From Chalara sp. BL73 (Eukaryota; Ascomycota; Leotiomycetes; Helotiales): a stretch of 64,000 nt of DNA. Position 1 is the stretch's first letter. Each line of letters begins with the position of its first letter. Below are positions 20,259 through 53,597 of this stretch, piece after piece. Position numbers and translations under genes: made by a program. The DNA lies in NCBI GenBank assembly GCA_918026815.1, contig CAKJVC010000010.1:2110501-2174500 (forward strand), given 5' to 3'. The notes under the pieces are model-generated. The model had not been told where the DNA came from, did no database searches, and saw only the letters and a program-made list of their open reading frames with translations.

Positions 20259-23200
20259 TCAGTCTTTCTCAAAATTGAAGCTACATATCCATACCTTTCC
20301 AGATCTAGCGCCAATGCCCATAACTTTCGCGGACACGGATGAACATGATGGCCGATATTCTGAGGGTAGCCACAAAACGTTCTCAGAATTATATGTTATC
20401 CATCTTCCATTTGAACTAAATCCTCCGTCTTTATATTGGGGGCTTTGAGAATTTGTTACAGTCACGTTTGTAAAAGAAGTAAACGGCGCATTGATAGCGA
20501 CAGTACCATGTTCAGTTTGAAGATAACAATCGGTGGTATCAAACCATATTTTATCGAGTATTTTTCCAAACTCAAACGTCTGGAGGCAGGCGCCGCTACT
20601 GACGTCCCAGAGCTTGACGGTGTTGTCGTACGATGCTGAAGCAAGCCGGGTCGAGTCGTGCGAGAAAGCTACTGAATTGACCCAACTGCTATGGCCTTCG
20701 AGCGTCTGGAGGTAGGCGCCGCTACTAGCGTCCCAGAGCTTGACGGTGTTGTCGTTTGCTGCTGAAGCAAGCCGGGTCGAGTCGTGCGAGAAAGCTATTG
20801 AATTGACCGAATTGCTATGGCTTTCGAGCGTCTGGAGGCAAGTGCTGCTACCGACGTCCCAGAGCTTGACGGTGTTGTTTGCTGCTGAAGCGATCCGGGT
20901 CGAGTTGTACGAGAAAGCTACTGAATTGACTGAATCGCTATAGCATTCGAGCGTCTGGAGGCAGGCGCCGCTACTAGAGTCCCAGAGCTTGACAGTGTTG
21001 TTGTTTGCTGCTGAAGCGAGCCGGGTCAAGTCGTGCGAGAAAGCTATTGAATTGACACAACTGCTATGGCCTTCGAGCGTCTGGAGGCAAGTGCTGCTAC
21101 CGACATCCCAGAGCTTGACAGTGTTGTCGTTTGCTGCTGAAGCGAGCCGGGTCGAGTCGTGCGAGAAAGCTATTGAATTGACCCAACTGCTATGACCTTC
21201 GAGCGTCTGGAGGCAAGCGCTGCTACCGACGTCCCAGAGCTTGACGGTGTTGTCGTCTGCTGCTGAAGCAAGCCGGGTCGAGTCGTGCGAGAAAGTTACT
21301 GAATTGACCGAATTGCTATGACCTTCGAGCGTCTGGAGGCAGGCGCCGCTACTAGCGTCCCAGAGCTTGACGGTGTTGTCGTTTGCTGCTGAAGCGATCC
21401 GGGTCGAGTTGTACGAGAAAGTTACTGAATTGACCGAATTGCTATGACCTTCGAGCGTCTGGAGGCAGGCACTCCATTCTCTCGATACCGGGCGTACAAC
21501 TAACCATTTTGGCTCTTCATATCTAAAAAGGCATCTTATCAGGCTTCGCGCTGGGCTAAATAGGAGTGCAGACGCATATGTCTGAAGAGGATTGTTTTCT
21601 ATTGCCAGCTTGTGAGACATGATAAATCGGCGCGCATCTCGAACTAGTTCTATTAACGCGGATGCTTTTCTTCTTCCCTGGTTTCTGTTAGTATAAAGCA
21701 CACTAAGAGAGCGTTGTTACTTTTTCTATTACCTGGATTAAAGCCTCGAGCTTTGCCATTGACACTACCCCCTCTGACATGCTTTTGCAAAGGCTTAGAG
21801 CCTCCAGCCAGTAAAGATATTTCTTTTTTATGAATTCATGGACAACGCCTCCATCTTGCAGATCGACCATGTGATCCACAGAAAAGCCAGGATTCCATTC
21901 ATAAAGGTGAGCAATCCAGGAGATACATGAGTAGCGTAACGCTGCCAGTGGATCTGGGTCCGGCTGTTCAACCCGCTCGGTAGGATATCCTAACTTACGT
22001 AGGCTGTACATGTCTCGCCGGAGTGTCTTTGACATAATCTGAAGAGATCTTGAGAAAACTGTATAGTGGGCCTCCTTTACTCCAGATGGAAAGATATCCT
22101 TAAAAGCTTCTGTAAATAGAAAGTCTTTTGCAGATTGATGTACAAAATAGACAGTATCTCCTCGAATAATAAGGAAAGAGCCACACAGGCTAATAATTTC
22201 TCGTACTGACTCAAGATCGTTACTTATATCCTCAGGCATCTCAGTAAGAGATACGAGCTCTTTAAGTGTAATAGGTCGGTAAACGATCGTAATTAAGGCT
22301 AGTATCCGCTTGCAAAGAGTAGCGTCGTCCGCATCATCCAAATTGCATATCTGCTGCATCATCCGCTTGTAAAAAGAGTTTAGTCCAGGTGGGAAAGCGT
22401 TTAGCTTCGTAAGAGTTTTCCGTCGGGGGATCTTTTCGAGATTTTGACAGACTAAAGCCACCCAGAGAAAAGTGCCATTTGCATATAAGGAAAGATAGCT
22501 AAGCATAGCATCTCGCGTCTTGTCGTCGTACTTCTTTGTTTCTGATAGCTCATGTGCTTTGTGTCGGATGTAGATGCCAACAGCTGTAGATATAGACTCT
22601 GCATTCAGCTCGAGGCTCAGCTTTACCTTCTGTCCCACTCTCTCAATCTGTTCCTCGATTTCGGGCCAGTTGCGGCTGGAGATGATCCACTTGACGCGAG
22701 GACATATAGATGAGAGCTGAACGATAAGGTTCAATAGTTTTGGCAAGTCAGCGATGCACTCGTCAAGCGCATCGACAATTAAGCATATAGCGTTCAGGTT
22801 AGGGTCTTGCAGAATACCTGTCAAGATCTCAGACAAGGCAACCCGGGCATTCGCATCCTCGAAAAGCTTTTTGCCGGCTTGATCGTATCTCGCCCGTACA
22901 TGCGAAATAAGTGATGGCTGCTGACTGATAAGCATGTATATCAGACCTCGCAGCACGGCTGTGGCATTGTTGATTCGCGAATCGGTAGCCTGGCAGAAAA
23001 AGTAGGAAAGAAGAACCGTCCCGACCGTTTGTTTATTCAGCTCGTCAACTATGCCACAGAGTAACATTGTCTTTCCTTTACCTGGATCTCCCTTGATCCA
23101 TAGCAGCTGGCTCTGCTTGTCGTAACGCCATTGTTGGAAGTAGGAATTTTCAAGGATCCAGCGATATGAGGCGGCTAGCAGGCCACCCTTGGTGTCCTCA

Positions 23201-23991
23201 ATACGCTTCTTGTCATCGCGGGGATCAGTAAGGCGTAGGTCTTGGAGACATTTGTTAAGCTTGTCGATCTCCTCCTCGAGCCGGTTGAATGCATTTACCA
23301 TCCCCTCACCATAACGAAGAGGTATATGGACGTCAAAAATGCCGAGTAACGAGTACGCTTTGTCTTCTTCGAGCTTAGTCTGGCGAGGCTGAATCCATGA
23401 AAATCGCTCTTTATCGCTAAACTGCGACAAACAAGCCCCTTGAAGTGCCGACTTAGGAATGCCTGTTATCTCGTGGATTTGTTGCTCCAGAGAACTTTTA
23501 TTGCCAACTTTCTGGAATTCGCTAGAGAAAAATTCGACCGAAGAAGGGGCAAGCAGCTCTTGAAGCGTCCAACCCCGAGTGAACCACGTACTTTTTCGGA
23601 AATCCGATTCCCATAACTGCGGATTGTATTCATCGTTACTATCAAAAGTAGGAATAAGCAGATCCGATAAATAAACGTAGCATCGAGTCGCGTTGCGATA
23701 CCAACGAAACATAGAATTGACAGAGTGCGAGAGTTCGACGTAGTTTTCTTTATCAATACAACATGTATCCACCCAGAAGTATTGTAAGCCATCTCGTCGC
23801 GCTTGTTCTCCACAGAAGCGGATCTTTTTATTGCCATGCTTTTCCTTGCCAGTGCCAGCTATCAGGTTTTCGAAAGTAACCTCTTGGCCTTCTACCCAAG
23901 TGTGTGAAAGTATCGCATAAGGCGGAGTAATATCGTTTTGGAAGTCTCTAAAGCAGAACTCGCCATCGTCGCAGCATTCCAAAAGCCGCAT
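20259..23991 (-). CDS. HET-NACHT-WD40 (HNWD-type) STAND protein
   Basis: This 1225-residue fungal NLR-like protein has the architecture of Podospora HET-E/HET-D, which trigger heterokaryon incompatibility cell death. The HET domain is at about residues 1-230 (PYAILSHTWVEGQEVTF, YFWVDTCCIDK, SMFRWYRNATRCYVYLSD, TRGWTLQELLAPSSV). The NACHT NTPase has Walker A GDPGKGKT at 301-308 and Walker B LIVDALDE near 404-411. The last third is a WD40 propeller. A 55-nt intron at 21678-21732 (GTAATA...TACTAACAGAAACCAG) joins exon 1 (23991-21733, 753 codons) to exon 2 (21677-20259) on a codon boundary. Choosing the second CAG as acceptor is what brings the WD40 frame into line. The gene appears intact. Confidence 0.92.
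20600..21470 (-). repeat. Seven near-identical 126-bp WD40 repeats
   Basis: Each unit encodes about 42 residues with the core CLQTLEGHS, NSVAFSHDSTRLASA and NTVKLWD. Units differ mainly at a few positions, such as the residues after EGHS (NS, SW, SC, DS) and before NTVK. One unit lacks a codon (AANNTV instead of AANDNTV). High internal identity with variation at few sites is the known hallmark of repeats in fungal incompatibility STAND genes. Confidence 0.9.
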
Positions 23992-30676: not shown

Positions 30677-33218
30677 TTACTCAACGCTTTTTTCCAGTAG
30701 CAGCATCAATATCATCTCCTTGACTTCGCCTCCACCTATTGATGCTGCAATTCTAGGATCAGCCCCCTTCTGTAGTAATAGCTTTGCTGTCGCGTCGTGG
30801 CCCCTTTCCATGGCTCCATATAGCCCCCAATTAGGATCAGCCCCTTTCTCTAGCAATAGCTTCACTATCCCTTCGCGGTCATTACTTGCGGCTCCCTCTA
30901 ATCCCTTATCAGGATCAGCCCCCTTCTCTAACAGTAGCTTCACTACTGACTCGTGGCTATTCTCTGCGGCTCTATATACCCCCTTGTTAGGATCAGCCCC
31001 TTTCTCTAGCAATAGCTTCACTACTGCCTCGTGGCCATTCACTGCGGCTCTATATATCCCCCCTATTAGGATCAGCCCCTTTCTCTAGCAATAGCTTCAC
31101 TATCCCCTCGTGGCCATTACTTGCAGCCCCCAGCAATCCCTGACTAGGATCAGCCCCCTTCTCCAGCAATAGCTTCACTATTCCTTCGTGGTCATTACTT
31201 GCGGCTCCCTCCAATCCCTTATCAGGATCAGCCCCTTTCTCTAGCAAATACCTCACTATCCCTTTGTGGCCATTCTTTACAGCTCCCAGCAATCCCTGAC
31301 TAGGATCAGCCCCTTTCTCTAGCGATAGCTTCACTATCCCTTCGTGGCCATTACTTGCGGCTCCCTCTAATCCCTTATCAGGATCAGCCCCCTTCTCTAA
31401 CAACAGCTTCACTACTGCCTCGTGGCTATTCTCTGCGGCTCTATATATCCCCCTATTAGGATCAGCCCCTTTCTCTAGCAATAGCTTCACTACTACCTCA
31501 TGGCCATTCACTGCGGCTCTATATATCCCCCTATTAGGATCAGCCCCTTTCTCTAGCAATAGCTTCACTATCCCCTCGTGGCCATTACTTGCGGCTCCCT
31601 CTAATCCCTTATCAGGATCAGCCCCCTTCTCTAACAGTAGCTTCACTACTGCCTCGTGGCTATTCTCTGCGGCTCTATATATCCCCCTATTAGGATCAGC
31701 CCCTTTCTCTAGCAATAGCTTCACTACTGCCTCGTGACCGTTCTCTGCAGCTACTTGCAAAGCATATTGGCTAATATTAGCTCCCTTGTCGAGTAATAAC
31801 TTTACTACTCTCTCGAACCCACTCTGAATGCTCGCCTGTACTAGTTGCTGATCCACCTTGGCCCCTTTATCCAATAACAACTCCACTATTGTCTCGTGAC
31901 CGCTTTCTACAGCTGCTTGTAAGGCACCTTGACCAAGGTCAAGGTCTGCCACTCTTTCCAGTAACAGGCTCACTGTTCCCTGATGCCCACTCGCTGCAGC
32001 TGCTTTCAAGGCCCCCTGAATAGACCGAACCCCCTTTCCTAATAATTGCCTTACCATCACTTCGTTTCCATTTAGTGCAGCCTTTTTTAATGGCAACTGG
32101 TAGTTGCTTGAGCGACGCTCTCGTTTGACACATAAGCGTTTTCGTATAAATTTTGACCGTTTATAATTCCTGAGTTTGATTAGTTCGAGTGTCCCGCCCT
32201 TTGCCCTAGTCCAATGGTCTCTTGTATCCGATGAGGCTTTCAAATATATTCCAACTCCTGTCTCTGGACTCCCTTCTACCTCGCAAGGAAGAATGACAAG
32301 TAAAACTCGCTGGGAAGCCGGTCTTTCAAAATCCAGGAAGCTGAGTTCCAGATGAATTCCTTTGTTATTCACGGTTATGGCTCCACTTGAAGTGTCGGAA
32401 GAGACGTTTGGAATGATCTTGGTTGAATCTGAGAAAGCAGCAGGGCTAGGGGCCAGAAGGCCACCATCGTGGACTACCGATCCCCAGGCGAAAAGGCTGT
32501 GATCATCAGAGACCTTCATGATCTCTTCCTGGAGTCTAGTGAACGCCTTCTCTCCTTCGCCGTACAACATAGGCATGTTAACATCAAATATGCCCATTAG
32601 ACAATATGCAACATCCTCGACGCGCGTTGTCTTTCTCTTTGAAGCCCACGACATTCTTTGTGCAATGCTTGCACTCCAGAGATCGGCGCCTTGGAGGATT
32701 TCGCCGGGTATGCCGGTGACTCCGGATATTCTTGCTTGTAGGCTTATCTTAGTACCGATTTCTTGCCATTTTTGGTTGAAAAAAATCACCCCTGAGGGAG
32801 CGATAAGTTCTTGAAGTGTCCATCCTCTAGTAAACCACGTGCTCTTTTCGAAGTCCGGGTAAGGAGTCTTGGTCTGGGGACTCAAATCATCGGATGGCAG
32901 ATCGGAAATATAGGCATAGCATAAGCCGGATTCCCGGTACCAACGAAACATGGAGTTGATCGCTTCAGAAAGTTCCGCGCTGCTTGTTTTATCAATGCAG
33001 CAAGTATCAACCCACGCATAGTCAAATCCGTGAGCATTGGCAATGGAGCAAGTCTTCCTGATCTTGTCATATCCTTCCCCAATTCCATCTTGTATGTGCC
33101 CAACATCTTGGAATGAAATTTCATTGCTCCCCCACCTATGCGAAAGGATTGCGTATAGAGGGACCTGGTCGCCTGCGAAACTTTCAAGCTTGTAGGTCTT
33201 TACATTGAGGAGACGCAT
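30677..33218 (-). pseudogene. HET-ankyrin gene with a one-base frameshift in a C run
   Basis: The HET domain fills roughly residues 1-240 (PLYAILSHRWGSNEISFQ, FDYAWVDTCCIDK, YCLMGIFDVNMPMLYGEG, HSLFAWGS). After a linker, about 17 ankyrin-like repeats run to the C-terminus. There is no NACHT domain. The first frame stops at 31050, and a second frame continues the same repeats to 30677. The break lies in a run of six C at 31058-31063; sister units have five at this point, and the spacing between neighbouring repeat landmarks is 79 bp instead of 78. It is therefore a single-base insertion: a true frameshift, a slippage allele or an assembly error. Without it the product would be about 840 residues, a likely allorecognition or defence factor. 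Confidence 0.85.
30700..31800 (-). repeat. 78-bp tandem array coding 26-residue ankyrin-like repeats
   Basis: Units are nearly identical and encode patterns such as GHEAVVKLLLEKGADP with a variable half reading GIYRAAENS, GLEGAASNG or GLLGAASNG. The landmark ATCAGCCCC recurs every 78 bp (30914, 30992, 31071, 31149, 31227). Standard ankyrin repeats have 33 residues; these lack the loop/TPLH segment. Confidence 0.88.
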
Positions 33219-44273: not shown

Positions 44274-45278
44274 TCAAACTTTAATCTTATCTAATAGCTC
44301 CTTAACGACTTCTTCTACATTCATATTGTAGTCAGGTCGGAAAAAGGTCTCGTCGCTTTGATCAACCAGTACCATCATTGCAAACAGCTTGTCTCGCCGG
44401 TCTGTAGCTTTCCGATGGCGAGTACTATATGCGATATCCAAGATGTCTGGCGCCGGAAGCAAAATCTCTCCGCGCTGTCGTTCAATGTGTTGCATCTGAA
44501 GGTCTAGCATCTGCAGGAAGATGTCCATGTTTACTTGCGATAGGCCAGCCCGTTCCTATTGTGGAGAAATGGCTGCGTATTTGATCCGTCGCATGAATTT
44601 CATTACTTGACTAGGATTATTCTCCCATTGGAAGCTGTCATTCCTGCATATCATGACAGCCTTTCGGGAGACACATGCTTCCTGGATTACCCACATGCGT
44701 TGGAAATACTCTCGTTGAAGAATTCCGCTGAGTGCCGGAAAGAAAGTAACGCCTGACATTTGGTCCCACGGTGCTGGCTCGTGTAGAGTGTTTTGAGCGA
44801 GGTATTCTAGGACTTCCATTCCTATAGTGCTATCTATACTCGCAGCGCCAAGCCAGATTTGGACGTTCTCTGCTCGAGCATACACATCTAGCATAAGAGC
44901 TATTTGGGTATTCTTCTCCTTAACAGATTGTTGATTGATACAAAGCGCATCCACCCAAGGAGTTCTCAGAACAATCGGAGAGCGTAAGCGTCTAACCGCA
45001 ACGTCGAGATTTGGCAGGATTCTGAGGGCGTATTGATCGTCCAATATTATATAAGACATATCGTCCCAACCGGAGCCGCCCCAAACATATGACAATGCGT
45101 CGTATTGCACCATCCAACCTAGTATACCATACTCTGTGGTGCTTGGGGTGTGGGGATTGTGAATAATTCGGGCCCGTAGTGGATGGTCAGGCGTACCCGG
45201 GGCTAATTCTAATACTCGAATATCCTTTGGGTGCTCTAGCTGACGATACTGGTACTCGCGGTATTGGCCAAGCCACTA
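44274..45278 (-). pseudogene. HET-domain gene, one in-frame stop and truncated C-terminus
   Basis: The HET domain is recognisable from RVLELAPGTPDHPLRARI, YDALSYVWGGSGWDD, TPWVDALCINQQSVKEKNTQ and REYFQRMWVIQEACV. The frame is open upstream of the first ATG (45113) to about 45278 and reads YREYQYRQLEHPKDIRVLEL, so the real start lies further up, probably behind an intron ending TGATAG. A TAG at 44556-44558 interrupts the frame (ISPQ-stop-ERAGLSQ). The frame then continues to 44274, where the protein ends shortly after the domain, although relatives continue for several hundred residues. A 520-bp element lies directly upstream. Confidence 0.8.
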
Positions 45279-47439: not shown

Positions 47440-50400
47440 ATGGAGGTAAGCCGACAGGCTGTGAAGTGTTATATTTTGAACTGATAGCGGTTTCTAAAAT
47501 TCTATAGGAGGAGGTAAGAAAGTTCGTCGGAGTTTGGATAGCTAGAGTTAATAGCTGACCGCATCTTCTTGATAATCACAGCGTGTAAGTGAACCTTCCT
47601 ATAGAATAATGTATTGAATTGCCAGCTAAGTACGTGATTTTAACGGCTACAGCGTGTAAGTGGACCCCGTTACGAAAGAGCGTACTAAATAGATAACTAA
47701 CCGCGTATTCTTGAGAATTATAGTATGTAAGTGGACCTGGCCAGAGAGTAATACTAGATTGCCAGCTAAGTACGTCCTCTTGACGGCTGTAGCATGTAGG
47801 TAGATCGCACTAAGAAAGGGTATACTGAATAAGTAGCTGACCGCGTATTCTTGACGGTTGTAGTGGGTAAGTAGACTCTGCTTGAGGATAGTGTGCTAAA
47901 AAAATAGCTGACTACGTGTTTTTAATGGGTGTAGCATGTAAGTAGACTTTGTTCGAGAATAGTATACTAAATAAATAGCTGATTACGTGTTTTTAATAAC
48001 TGTAGGGTGTAAGTAAACTATGTTCACAAATAGTATACTAGATAAATAGCTGATTACGTGTTTTTAATGGCTGTAGGAAGTAAGTAAACTCTGCTCGAAA
48101 TAGTATGCTTAATAAATAGCTGACTACGCGTTTTTGGCGGTTGTAGTGGGCAAGTGAACTTTGCTTGAAAATAGTATATTGAATAAATAGCTGACTACGT
48201 GTTTTTAATGGCTGTAGGAAGTAAGTAGACTCTGCTCGAAATATTATGCCGAATAAATAGCTTACTACGTGTTTTTAATGGCTGTAGTATGTAAGTAGAC
48301 TTTGCTTAAAAATATTATGCTGAATAAATAGCTAACTACGTGTTTTTAATGAGTGTAGCTTGTAAGTATACTTTGCTTAAAAATGGTATACTAAATAAAT
48401 AGCTAACTACGTGTTTTTAATGGCTGTAGCCTGTAAGTAAACTCTGCTTGAGATATATGTTGAATAAATAGCTGACTATGTGTTTTTAATGGCTGTAGCG
48501 TGTAAGTAGACTCTGCTTGAGAATAGTATGCTGAATAAATATCTGACTACATGTTTTTAATGGATGTAGCTCGTAAATAAACTATATTCGAGAATAGTAT
48601 ACTAAATAAATAGCTGATTATGTGTTTTTAATGGTTGTAGGATGTAAGTAAACTCTGTTCAAAAATAGTATACTAGATAAATAGCTGATTACGTGTTTTT
48701 AATGGCTGTAGAAAGTAAGTAAACTCTGCTCGAGATAGTATGCTTAATAAATAGCTGAATACGTGTTCTTAACGGTTGTAGTGGGTAAGTAAACTCTGCT
48801 TGAGAATAGTATGCTTAATAAATAGCTGACTACATGTTTCCAATGGCTGTAGGAAGTAAGTAAACTCTATTCAAGATAGTATATTAAATAAATAACTGAC
48901 TACGTGTTTTTAATGGCTGTAGCGTGTAAGTAAACTTTGCTTGAAAATATTATGCTAAATAAATAGCTAATTACGTGTTTTTAATGGCTGTAGCCTGTAA
49001 GTAAACTATGTTCGAAAATAGTATACTAGATAAATAGCTGACTACGTGTTTTCAATGGCTGTAGCGTGTAAGTAGACTATGTTCGAAAATAGTATACTAA
49101 ATAAATAGCTGACTACGTGTTTTTAATGGCTGTAGCCTGTAAGTAAACTCTGCTTGAGATATATGTTGAATAAATAGCTGACTATGTGTTTCTTATGGCT
49201 GTAGCGTGTAAGTAGACTTTGTTTGAGAATAGTATGCTGAATAAATATCTGACTACATGTTTTTAATGGCTGTAGCTCGTAAGTAAACTATATTCGAGAA
49301 TAGTATACTGGATATATAGCTGACTACGTGTTTTTAATGGCTGTAGCCTGTAAGTAGACTACGTTCGAAAATAGTATACTAGATAAATAGCTGACTACGT
49401 GTTTTTAATGGCTGTAGGAAGTAAGTAAACTTTGCTTGAAAATAGTATACTGGATAAATAGCTGACTGCCTGTTTTTAATGGCTGTAGCGTGTAAGTGGA
49501 TTTTGTTCGAGAATAGTTGTAACAACAGAGGGCAACAGGAGGGATTGCAATATAACAGGTAAGAACACGCGACTGCAATGTAATTGAAACAGTGATGTAT
49601 TGATATCAAAAGTATGCTTGTCAGTCTAGTAGAGAAACTCAAGCTTGCCTTCCTTCAGGAAGCTCTAGCTGTTCCTTATATCCTTTCAACTGTGCTGTAG
49701 CTGTATGCCTGTGGCTGCTGTAGCTGTTATGATATCCGTCTCTAACCGGCCCTGGCTGTTACACTGGCTGTTACAACAGTATGCTAAATAAATAGCTGAC
49801 TACGTGTTTTTAATGGCTGTAGCGTGTAAGTAGACTCTTCTTAAAATATTATGCTAAATGAATAGCTAACTATGTATTTTTAATGGCTGTAGCATGTAAG
49901 TAAACTCTGTTCGAGATAGCGTGCTTAATAAATAGCTGACCACGTGTTCTTGACGGTTGTAGCCTGTAAGTAGACTACGTTCGAAAATAGTATATTAAAT
50001 ACATAGCTGACTACGTGTTTTTAATGGCTGTAGTATGTAAGTAAACTCTGTTCAAAAATAGTATACTAGATAAATAGCTGATTACGTGTTTTTAATGGCT
50101 GTAGGAAGTAAGCAAACTTTGCTCGAAATAGTATGCTTAATAAATAGCTGACTACGTGCTTTTAATGGCTGTAGCGTGTAAGTAAACTTTGCTCGAAATA
50201 GTATGCTGAATAAATAGCTGATTACGTGTTTTTAATGGCTGTAGTATGTAAGTAGATTTTTGCTTGAAAATAGTATGCTGAATGAATAGCTGATTACGTG
50301 TTTTTAATGGCTGTAGAAAGTAAGTAGACTCTGCTTGAAAATAGTATGCTGAATAAATAGCTGACTACATGTTTTAACGGCTGTAGTATGTACGTAAACT

Positions 50401-53400
50401 TCGCTCTAGAATAGCATACTAGATAAGTAGCTGACTATATACTTTAACGGCTGTAGGGTGTAAGTAGGCCCTACTCGAAAGTATTATACTAAATGGATAG
50501 CTAATCTTGATTTTCTAATTATTATAGCTGGTTAGTAAGCCCTGCTAGAGAAACTTTAATGATAATAACTATGTTTCTTCTACCGTTATAGAATGTAAGT
50601 ATATGCTAATGTAGAGTGACTCGCTAGTTAAATGGCTAACTGTATCCTTTTATGGCTATAGGATGTAAATAAACCCACATGAACTATTATATCAGATGAA
50701 TAGCTAACTCCACCTTAACGGTAATAGAGGGTAAGTAAACTCGGCCAAAATGAAGCATGGATCTTTATTAGCTAATTATACCTTCCTTGCCTTTATATAG
50801 ATTGTAAGTGGAAAGTATTTTAGTGCTATAATTTTATACTTGCCTATTATCTAACTATAACTTCTAATGACGGATAGGAAGTAAGTTAAGTAATAACGAG
50901 ATTCCCGTTTAAATTAATGTATTTGAACCCTTTTAATTAGTCTAGGCTGTAAGTAAACCCTGTTTAAGCAATATATATTTATATCTAAATTACTAACACT
51001 GCCTTTTTTTAAATGTAGGTTGTAAGTAAAGCCGCTTCCAATATACCTTCCTATCGACTTTTAGCTGATATTGCCTCCTTACGATTAGAAAGTGAGTACC
51101 CCCAGCTAGGGCTGCCTCTCTATATATTGTTGCTAATTCTCGCCTTCCTACTATTATAGACTGTAAGCCATTTCTGATACAGTAGATCTTTCTCCTAAAA
51201 TTATCACTGACCGCGCCGCCTTAACTATTGCAGGGAGTAAGTGATTTCATCGGGGTGTATATATCAACTTCTTGAGATGGTAGCTGATTGTACCTATTTG
51301 GCGGCGGGTGCAGCTGGTAAGTTAAGGAAACCAGGCCAGAGCAATTCTCTTGTCGCACTAATTAATTGTGCCTCCTTATGATCGTAGGAAGTAAGTAAAC
51401 TCTGGAATCAGCCACATTCTTATCTGAAGCTTACCACACACTTCGGTAGCTGTATAGATTCGGAGACACGCCAACGGAAGATGAGGAAGTATCGGACTTG
51501 GCTATCCATTTTGCGAAGCAGCACCTCCATTCCCATTCGAGATCTGAAATGTCATTCAGGCTGTGCGACTTGTGCATTAGTATCCCTACTAAGTGGCTGC
51601 TCGAATCACCAAAAAACGGCTATACTCTTTTTAAGAATGGACGAGAGCTAAGGGAGTCTGAAAAAACATGCGACCTCTGCGGGTTGATCTGCGAGTTGAC
51701 ACTCCGATCCCACCGTAGTCTAGATTACGTGCAGAAAGTCAACATTGGTATTGAGCCACGATTCTTGATTATCGAAGCCGTAATTGGCGGTACGGTCAAA
51801 CACAGTTTTCTGAGACTCTGTGCAGATCCGGGTAGGTGGCATCTTTCAATGTCCTGATCTCCACGCATTCGCTTAGATTTATTCTAACTGTGATTAGACT
51901 CAGAAGCCGCAAGTATGGGTATTGGAGTGGGACTTCCACTCTTACTTGAAATGGGTACGGAACGGAATTTTTCCCTGCTTCGTGAATGGCTTCAAGACTG
52001 CGACAAGAGTCACAGCGATCATAGATATGATTCTGCCAACAAAAAATTGCCGACAAGACTACTCGACGTTGGAGATTCGAAAAACTCGGAGAGGCTACTT
52101 CTTTACGATACCAATGAGAAACGAGGAGAGGACATTGAATGGAAAAATTACATTGCCTTGTCTCATTGCTGGGGGGGCGCCACGCCGCTTTGTACCGAGA
52201 AAAGCACTATTGAGGCTCACCGCAAAGCAATGAAGTTCGAGGACTTACCGAAATTGTTTCAAGATGCTGTGACGGTTACTCGAAATCTTGGAATGCAGTT
52301 TCTCTGGATCGATTCACTTTGCATAATTCAGGACGATGAAGACGATTGGCAACGTGAAGCAAAACGCATGCAGGATATTTTTGCTTCTGCGTACTGCACC
52401 ATCGCCGCCTCCACTGCCAAGAACTCGAAGGAACACTTTCTCCCTCGGATTGGCAAAAGGGTTGTCAAGCTTGTGGACAATAGCACAGGCACTTCATTCA
52501 ACATCTACGCTTGTGAAGTCGGCGGAAGTTTTAATGACGATGTAGAAAAGGGAGAACTGAACAAACGCGGCTGGGTGTTACAAGAGCGAGCCTTATCACC
52601 TCGGACCATCCATTTCGCCGCAACCTACACGTACTGGGAGTGCGGATCTGTGATCCGTTGCGATAACCTGACTCAAATGGTTAAGTGAGTGTTGTTTCGT
52701 ATGGTCAGATCTCATAATTGTCCTTTGTTCATATATCCCCAATCCATTCGCGCCGATTTCATAATCTAACGTATTTTCTCAATGGAGCAAAGGCCTTCAA
52801 ACTTGCTTAGCAGTTCTCGGTTCCCAATGATGACTGCAGGGCCACCTTCAGGAGGTGCAGTCTTTGCATTCGAAGATATCTTTGCCAGATACTCGCAACG
52901 CGCCCTTACACGCAAAACAGACCGACCATATGCAATTGCCGGACTAGAACATAGACTGGAGCAATTCTACTGGACGAAAAGTTCGCATGGCATTATTCAC
53001 CGTTTCCTCGGCAAAAGCTTGCTTTGGCAACGGTCCGACAAGGCGTTGGAGGAAATAAAAGATTGCAAGATGGAGGTAGTCCCATCGTGGTCGTGGATGA
53101 GATATGAAGGGAAGATTTGTTATGGAAATATTCCCGCAATCAACACAAGCTGGGATCGAAGTATCGAGCTTATCCCTACCAGCTTGAACGGTCCAGCTCA
53201 GTACAAACTAGTGGGTTCAGTGGCGCAAATTTTGCCAAGTTGCAGCATTACACTGATGCCTGACACAACCTGCAAAATAAAATGCACCGAAGTTACCGTC
53301 GGATGCATTAGATTTGACAATGAAAACCAACTCGACGTTGGACATCTGGGATGCATTGTTCTCGCGCGGCATAAACCCAACGGCTGGAACGAAATTAGTC

Positions 53401-53597
53401 AAGAGAGTTGGAAAAAGTTTGCACGTGTTTCTTGGGATGAGCAGTTCGAATCAGGTATTCTTTTTTACGTCCTGGTTGTCTCATATGCCGCTCTCGGGCA
53501 GGCATGCGAAGTAGCGTCCCAAAGGCTGGGTGTGGCAGTTATCCAGGGTGAATATCTTTCATTCGGTGAGCCGCCGCGACGTCTGGAGATGTTCTAG
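47440..53597 (+). CDS. HET-domain protein whose N-terminus is encoded by 51 single-codon micro-exons
   Basis: Proposed model: ATG GAG (47440-47445), GAG GAG (47508-47513), 51 exons of 3 nt (47582 to 51390), then exons 51450-51831, 51904-52684 and 52793-53597. The sum is 2133 nt, exactly 710 codons plus stop. The HET core starts near residue 265 (YIALSHCWGG, FLWIDSLCIIQDDEDDW, FASAYCTIAAS, RGWVLQERALSPRTIHF). A Cys-rich stretch (LCDLC, TCDLCGLIC) precedes it, and a C-terminal region (DRPYAIAGLEHRL, VPSWSWMRYEG) completes a normal HET protein. A TAA lies just upstream of the ATG in the same frame. The final array acceptor at 51449 is the only one that enters the HET frame. The three large exons are secure; use of the array exons is inferred from signals and frame and needs RNA evidence. 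The likely role is non-self recognition or cell-death signalling in the cytoplasm. Confidence 0.72.
47582..51390 (+). repeat. Tandem array of about 70-bp units, each an intron plus one codon
   Basis: Triplet exons start at 47582, 47653, 47724, 47793, 47864, 47935, 48006, 48077, 48147, 48218, 48288, 48359, 48430, 48499, 48570, 48641, 48712, 48782, 48853, 48923, 48994, 49065, 49136, 49205, 49276, 49347, 49418, 49489, 49823, 49893, 49963, 50034, 50105, 50175, 50245, 50317, 50387, 50457, 50528, 50592, 50662, 50728, 50801, 50878, 50946, 51019, 51089, 51160, 51234, 51314 and 51388. Each is preceded by TAG or CAG and followed by GTAAGT or a tolerated variant. A typical intron reads GTAAGTAAACTCTGCT ... 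AATAGCTGACTACGTG TTTTTAATGGCTGTAG. Nineteen different triplets occur, none a stop. Encoded residues: 10 Arg, 7 Glu, 5 each of Pro, Tyr and Leu, 3 each of His, Trp, Gly and Lys, 2 Asp, and one each of Asn, Ile, Ala, Val and Thr. Confidence 0.93.
49518..49775. mobile_element. Solo LTR inside one intron of the array
   Basis: The segment begins TGTAACA and ends TGTTACA, is flanked by ATAGT on the left and ACAGT on the right, and interrupts an otherwise normal array intron (49492-49822). It matches the longer copy at 15539-16119. The donor, branch-site region and acceptor of the host intron remain on either side. Confidence 0.75.

Follow-up and report, generated by a model that had tools for sequence, protein, structure and literature searches.

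We describe a gene for a HET-domain protein whose 5′ part is predicted to consist of exons of a single codon each. It lies in a stretch of 64,000 nucleotides (nt) from Chalara sp. BL73, hereafter the window, which covers positions 2110501-2174500 of contig C7 in the genome searched, an assembly of 58.7 Mb and 199 contigs. Judged from the sequence, this gene probably joins 51 codons, after the removal of 53 introns, into the N-terminal segment of a 711-residue protein; the segment would be hypervariable, and its array of intron-plus-codon units would grow or shrink without frameshift. An earlier note on this DNA had read the region as a chain of introns separated by 3-nt exons, in phase 0 throughout and without a stop triplet, whose splice product enters the HET reading frame at 51450. 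Our parse bears this out: positions 47440-51449 resolve into 53 introns, the short exons ATGGAG and GAGGAG, and 51 triplets spanning 47582-51390, and the joined codons run in frame into the exon at 51450 and then into the HET domain. All but one of the 52 internal exons between introns measure 3 nt, the other (GAGGAG) being 6 nt long. The HET domain matches PF06985 with 112.6 bits against a cut-off of 22.5. The coding length, 710 codons plus stop in the note, becomes 711 plus stop in the new model; for the last intron, 5 of the border choices tried are in frame, so that its limits are ambiguous. The present analysis adds in-register peptide homology, six further arrays, hypervariability of the codons, and traces of introns in proteins of other genera.

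The introns of the C7 array carry recognisable splice signals. The donor is exactly GTAAGT in 42 of the 53 and GC in one, and the acceptors are TAG (49) or CAG (4). A CTRAY branch motif 12-40 nt before the acceptor is present in 46 of 53 introns, compared with a mean of 6.1 and a maximum of 12 in 200 rounds with shuffled interiors. Intron length has a median of 68 nt and a range of 59-77 nt, plus a single intron of 331 nt. Among introns 7-39, 32 of 33 match one consensus at 0.80-0.95 identity, the remaining one being the 331-nt intron, and for introns 7-29, from 47867 on, identity to the array consensus is 83-95%. Introns 40-53 have an identity to the consensus of 0.53-0.73, against 0.59 for shuffled sequence; in all 14 the donors are still GT, the acceptors AG and the spacing 3 nt, and CTRAY is present in 11. 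This diverged stretch, 50460..51449, is probably the oldest part of the array. One block of three units, CCT CGT CTC (48430..48572, plus strand), was copied together with its codons at 49136-49278, with a mean intron identity of 0.94. An ordinary open reading frame (ORF) was considered for 47440-51449 and rejected, since the three forward frames contain 142, 150 and 150 stops and the longest open stretch is 46 codons. The 331-nt intron 30 holds a dispersed repeat at 49512-49778, with apparent inverted ends, seen by eye, of TTGTAACA and TGTTACAA; it has at least 138 genome matches (40 of 232 candidates scored).

Predicted structure of the HET gene with one-codon exons (positions in the window)
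Feature	Position	Strand	Remarks
Predicted HET gene	47440..53597	+	56 coding exons, 711 codons + stop
Predicted first coding exon, ATGGAG	47440..47445	+	Sequence parse
Predicted exon 2, GAGGAG, 6 nt	47508..47513	+	Sequence parse
28 predicted single-codon exons with introns	47582..49491	+	Sequence parse; triplet starts 47582 47653 47724 47793 47864 47935 48006 48077 48147 48218 48288 48359 48430 48499 48570 48641 48712 48782 48853 48923 48994 49065 49136 49205 49276 49347 49418 49489
Intron 30, 331 nt	49492..49822	+	Array intron with dispersed repeat inside, about 49518-49775
Ten further homogenised single-codon exons	49823..50459	+	Triplet starts 49823 49893 49963 50034 50105 50175 50245 50317 50387 50457
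Diverged part, introns 40-53 around 13 codons spelling LNDRIEAVKTGLE	50460..51449	+	Peptide conserved in homologues; triplet starts 50528 50592 50662 50728 50801 50878 50946 51019 51089 51160 51234 51314 51388
First long exon, begins LYRFGDTPTEDEEVSDLA	51450..51831	+	Carries CxxC motif of HET N-terminus
HET-domain exon	51898..52681	+	Pfam match inside 51915-52688, PF06985 E 2.7e-32
Last exon, to stop	52793..53597	+	Start is one of several in-frame choices

Arrays of this kind occur elsewhere in the genome. A pattern for two consecutive 3-nt exons gave 88 genome matches, against 0 for the reversed pattern, and these group into seven loci, namely six HET genes and one ankyrin gene (C22). The arrays comprise 51 (C7), 42 (C67), 35 (C9), 16 (C59), 11 (C127), 7 (C3) and 7 (C22) triplets, 169 in total, the counts for C59 and C127 being those of a loose parse (the strict parse gives 8 + 7 and 8). 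A second, partly looser pattern returned 87 matches, with 0 in its control; it missed C3 and revealed no additional array, and more degenerate arrays may be present in the genome. The same pattern with 6-nt exons had 0 matches genome-wide, and exon lengths of 0-15 tried in the seven loci gave chains of more than two at length 3 only. Chance or artefact was rejected on these exon-length controls and on the reversed patterns. Inspected by eye, the downstream ordinary exon is in frame in all seven loci and the upstream exon in C7, C9, C59, C67 and C22, the five loci inspected on that side. Pfam HET matches were obtained for C7, C9, C127 and C3, and C7, C9, C67, C3 and C59 are among the HET loci of the genome, of which there are at least 150 (150 of 766 candidates scored). 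The C22 array lies inside an ankyrin domain, with Pfam ankyrin models matching on both flanks.

Some of these arrays resemble each other. C9, C59 and C67 begin with a common intron and agree in their last introns and in the end codons GAA and TTT, with 35, 16 and 42 codons, respectively. The similarity of the array consensus sequences reaches a z of 10.5 for C9-C59, 5.4 for C59-C67, 4.6 for C22-C127 and 3.6 for C7-C22, most other pairs being below 3.5. Weak similarity beyond the splice signals connects C7, C9, C22, C59, C67 and C127 (several pairs at z 3.3-5.4), hinting at a common origin of these six, and was not seen for C3. Searches with C7, C22, C127 and C67 found no copies outside their own array at E <= 0.001 (C9, C59 and C3 were not searched); the reach of this search was limited, as the query C67 missed the related C59 and C9 and diverged copies would escape it.

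Two properties of the codons are among the reasons for which we infer that they are spliced and translated, which we regard as well supported. First, the 169 triplets of the seven arrays include 0 stops, where column-shuffled bases gave a mean of 8.5 and reached zero in 1 of 20,000 rounds; per array, the absence of stops is significant for C9 (P 0.003) and not significant for C7 alone (P 0.14). Second, NAG and NAA codons stand at 3:30 in the arrays against 115:167 in HET bodies (p = 2e-4), a rarity of NAG that is expected because a new AG would make a second acceptor and disturb splicing. Array codons end in T in 97 cases and in C in 10, compared with 418:429 in HET bodies, where the HET-body codons for both comparisons are those of C7, C9 and part of C67. 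The predicted protein starts MEEERRYHWH, with no hydrophobic stretch seen by eye, and LNDRIEAVKTGLELYR is a predicted peptide stretch running through micro-exon junctions of C7.

Further evidence comes from homologous proteins. The closest public protein, from Bisporella sp. PMI_857, shows 96% identity over 74% of the query. The last C7 codons would join to LNDRIEAVKTGLE directly before LYRFGDTPTEDEEVSDLA, and protein P0005 of Xylaria bambusicola has LQRRIEAVRDGLE before LRPFGNTPTEDEEVSDFA, with LQERIKAIENGLE at the same place in P0007 and VYHRIAAMKVALE in P0004. The last 10 codons, RIEAVKTGLE, agree in register and ungapped with P0005 at 8 of 10 positions and with P0007 and P0004 at 6 of 10 each. 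When the order of the 51 codons was permuted 200,000 times, the scores of the last 10 and of the last 20 codons were never reached in four homologues; for the last 13 codons, the observed score was reached 3 times for P0004 and P0043 and never for P0005 or P0007. In a gapped test with the whole 55-residue peptide, the score was reached by 0 of 5000 shuffles for P0004, 0 for P0043 and 2 for P0005. P0004 and P0043 are near relatives and not independent. The N-terminal sequence of the homologues is thus conserved in register with the codons as we predict them to be joined, and P0004, P0005, P0007 and P0043 probably encode the segment continuously, to go by their annotation. A start of the HET protein downstream of 51450 is disfavoured because the homologues extend upstream of this position with conserved sequence and the sole in-frame ATG of the 51450 exon is at 51549. 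Searches for DNA of relatives gave none among viral contigs and, among genome contigs, three matches of 30-32% in bins filed as bacterial, which are uninformative about exon structure. These encode the HET-like proteins L038-L040, on contigs filed under Hymenobacter and Deltaproteobacteria, and are either contamination or distant homologues.

Traces of similar introns are found in annotated proteins of two Hypocreales. The stretch YYYINPMTWLTLFVLICQ of P0117 from Dactylonectria macrodidyma agrees with the translated terminal intron of C67, YCYVNLII*LTIFVLIC*, at 10 of 18 positions (0 of 100,000 shuffles) and is followed by the same F codon as in C67. Likewise, NADIDDQIQ in P0130 of Fusarium solani corresponds to NANIDEQI* of the last C67 intron at 6 of 9 positions (19 of 100,000 shuffles). 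P0117 also matches C9, with 62, 0 and 3 per 100,000 shuffles for three lengths. The C67 stretches end in stops and therefore cannot be coding in C67, and the gene models of P0117 and P0130 seem to read through array-like introns. Such intron-like stretches in Dactylonectria and Fusarium solani proteins suggest that the arrangement probably predates this genome and lies concealed in public gene models. These anchored tests were chosen after a comparison of 190 N-termini with the array DNA, which gave 5 matches below E 0.01, and 1 when the control was reversed, with E-values per query and not corrected for 190 queries; of the 5, the match of P0121 falls on an ordinary exon and two more contain residues from exons.

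The codons differ sharply from the introns in variability. In C7 and C67, codon positions 1 and 2 vary more than any other column of the unit (of 71 and 74, respectively), and in C9 they rank 2 and 4 of 71, the third position ranking first. The diversity of C67 is 0.63 and 0.73 at positions 1 and 2, 0.18 at the third base and 0.126 on average in the intron. Among 255 pairs of C67 units with introns less than 10% different, 227 differ in the amino acid and 0 by synonymous changes only; the same test gave 30 and 0 of 36 pairs for C7 and 16 and 2 of 22 for C9. The loose C7 chain used for the variability, pair, consensus and lag analyses includes one spurious unit at 47519, and a 334-nt unit was omitted from the variability alignment. 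Strong diversifying selection on the residue would give this codon pattern, a hypervariability read from one genome and without a codon model.

Several results weigh against a chain of translated one-codon exons. The HET bodies of C59 (L034) and C127 (L037) contain in-frame stops, and these two may be pseudogenes. For P0007, the score in the gapped test of the 55-residue peptide was reached by 466 of 5000 shuffles, a weak result, and among 79 background N-termini the highest score was 44, compared with 48-50. A protein search with residues 1-92 yielded 35 candidates, none at E <= 1. In the annotation of P0121 from Fusarium oxysporum, the closest homologue of C9, the flanking exons adjoin with no residues in between, an array there being either absent or hidden. 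In the anchored tests, C59 had no match to P0117 and neither C9 nor C59 matched P0130, while the fit of P0002 from Pyrenochaeta is weak (about 3% of shuffles) and at most suggestive. Finally, codon identity is nearly independent of intron similarity in C67 and C9, where simple duplication of units predicts otherwise, and the mean divergence of introns stays level from lag 1 to lag 8. Either almost all codons have been altered by selection after the most recent duplications, or introns were copied without the codon.

The second of these options leads to a different account of origin that is compatible with splicing: introns may have been inserted between the codons of a continuous segment as mobile or templated copies, a 3-bp target-site duplication adding one codon each time. 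The independence of codons from intron similarity and the flat divergence favour copying without the codon. Introners with duplications of 3-9 bp are described (PMC9860276), the array families look distantly related by their consensus z values (10.5 for C9-C59 and the others above), and the annotated proteins P0004, P0005 and P0007 include the segment. On the other hand, the absence of copies outside the four arrays searched, within the reach of that search, together with the fixed third-base T favours selection after duplication; the excess of codons ending in T would be unexpected in an ordinary coding segment, and one block of C7 was copied with its codons. We consider insertion between existing codons rather unlikely.

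We give a similarly low weight to the proposal that the spliced micro-exons carry no information, the segment being a linker that tolerates a runaway repeat without harm, since each unit leaves one in-frame codon. Homologues do differ in the length and sequence of the linker to which the segment belongs, and the paralogues C59, C9 and C67 have 16, 35 and 42 codons. Relaxed constraint alone, however, should not exceed the intron rate, as positions 1-2 of C67 do, and the last codons are conserved across genera. Less probable again is a regulatory brake, in which slow or inefficient splicing of the intron chain would keep down the expression of a death-domain protein, with the codons arising as a by-product. 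Active HET proteins are toxic to their own cell, and 53 introns have to be removed per full message, but neither the hypervariability of the codons nor the conservation of the oldest ones is explained. Least likely of all is a minisatellite without coding function that either precedes the gene or is spliced out whole as a single large intron, with a downstream start of translation at, for example, ATG 51549 or the Met in the public model of the nearest relative: that relative, P0001, is annotated from MGIGVG, the annotation of P0121 lacks the segment, and Tandem Repeats Finder (TRF) calls the region tandem repeats, but the conserved in-register peptide, the stop-free triplets, the avoidance of NAG, the spacing and splice sites kept by introns 40-53 despite diverged interiors, and the homology upstream of 51450 all speak against it.

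The preferred reading, a chain of one-codon exons, suggests how such a gene could work. In fungi, short introns are usually recognised as introns, and 5′-to-3′ splicing could therefore attach the 3-nt exons one by one: each would form the terminus of a long upstream exon by the time that the next donor comes into use. As a unit consists of one intron and a single in-frame codon, its gain, loss or skipping would keep the frame, while the amino acid that it encodes would change fast. The resulting HET protein would carry at its N-terminus a segment that is charged, aromatic and hypervariable. Since any exon could be skipped without loss of frame, we propose that one gene could give many peptides. 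By analogy, and as the least tested part of this proposal, the segment may act as a specificity segment in allorecognition. Only tentatively, and with less than even confidence, we put forward that a multiplying intron-plus-codon cassette, of an age that would make it common to Leotiomycetes and Hypocreales, writes hypervariable recognition strings residue by residue into genes of allorecognition, that these strings can be re-spelled when any subset of exons is skipped, and that the cassette has escaped notice because annotation reads over it.

We compared these arrays with known systems. Recursive splicing involves splice sites that adjoin each other. Stwintrons likewise have splice sites packed together, but they are nested, whereas here complete introns follow in succession with one codon left between them; nested introns or zero-length exons were not found in the seven loci, where no chain formed at exon length 0. 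Schistosome micro-exon genes (MEGs) have 10-20 short exons, mostly of 15 bp (overall range 3-81 bp in the abstract of the source and 6-81 bp in its results), with introns of 100 to almost 5000 bp and secreted products (PMC10526429). They share with our arrays the symmetric micro-exons in series, the difficult annotation and the variable proteins, and differ from them in that we find up to 51 exons of exactly 3 nt, separated by introns of about 68 nt homogenised per array, in HET and ankyrin genes. Long introns around varied short exons are not a feature of C7, given its intron lengths and its near-uniform micro-exons. The WD, ANK and TPR repeats of fungal NLR genes (HNWD family) are reported to show concerted evolution, positive selection and repeat-number polymorphism (PMC4986451). 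Homogenised repeats in which certain codon positions vary most are found in both cases, here in one genome, but the NLR repeat is a continuously coded motif of 33-43 residues and the repeat here is an intron plus one codon, with no WD, ANK or TPR motif as the unit. Introners (PMC4457414, PMC9860276) are near-identical introns in many copies, also in Pezizomycotina, and our arrays resemble them in this respect; introners are spread over many unrelated genes, while the copies found here adjoin within one gene, and none dispersed in unrelated genes were detected for C7, C22, C127 and C67 in the copy search described above. The Trichoderma gene Xlr2 has one 20-nt microexon, and according to its authors functional microexons lacked an earlier description in filamentous ascomycetes (PMC11121469); it shares with our case a microexon in a filamentous ascomycete and has no array.

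A literature search, covering open-access work and few subscription papers or preprints, returned MEGs, single 3-bp exons of animals, plant microexons, introners, stwintrons and the 20-nt fungal microexon and, among the papers listed, no series of one-codon exons.

If RNA confirms the structure, a single transcript would contain 51 consecutive one-codon exons and would test how the spliceosome copes with dozens of successive acceptor-donor pairs spaced 3 nt apart. This would also be a new route by which a gene makes a segment of its protein longer and more diverse, adding one residue with every repeat and at no point shifting the frame. The genes concerned are thought to separate self from non-self, and the HET genes carrying arrays are likely self/non-self recognition genes. 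Ordinary gene annotation probably misses the array-encoded segment, and public annotation would then be wrong for the N-termini of some HET proteins. With sister strains, the multiplication of introns would also become testable.

The window contains further HET features, all on the minus strand. At 20259-23991, a HET-NACHT ORF (21703-23991) is followed by a WD40 ORF (20259-21701) with near-identical repeats of 126 nt, and together they are an NLR-type gene with internally conserved repeats. An ORF of 185 residues at 44556-45113 aligns with the whole of the HET model (E 5.9e-28) and may be one exon, or what is left, of a further HET gene. Ankyrin repeats usually have 33 residues; the HET-ankyrin ORF at 31050-33218, within 30754-33218, has a shorter unit, with a tandem period of 78 nt corresponding to 26 residues per repeat.

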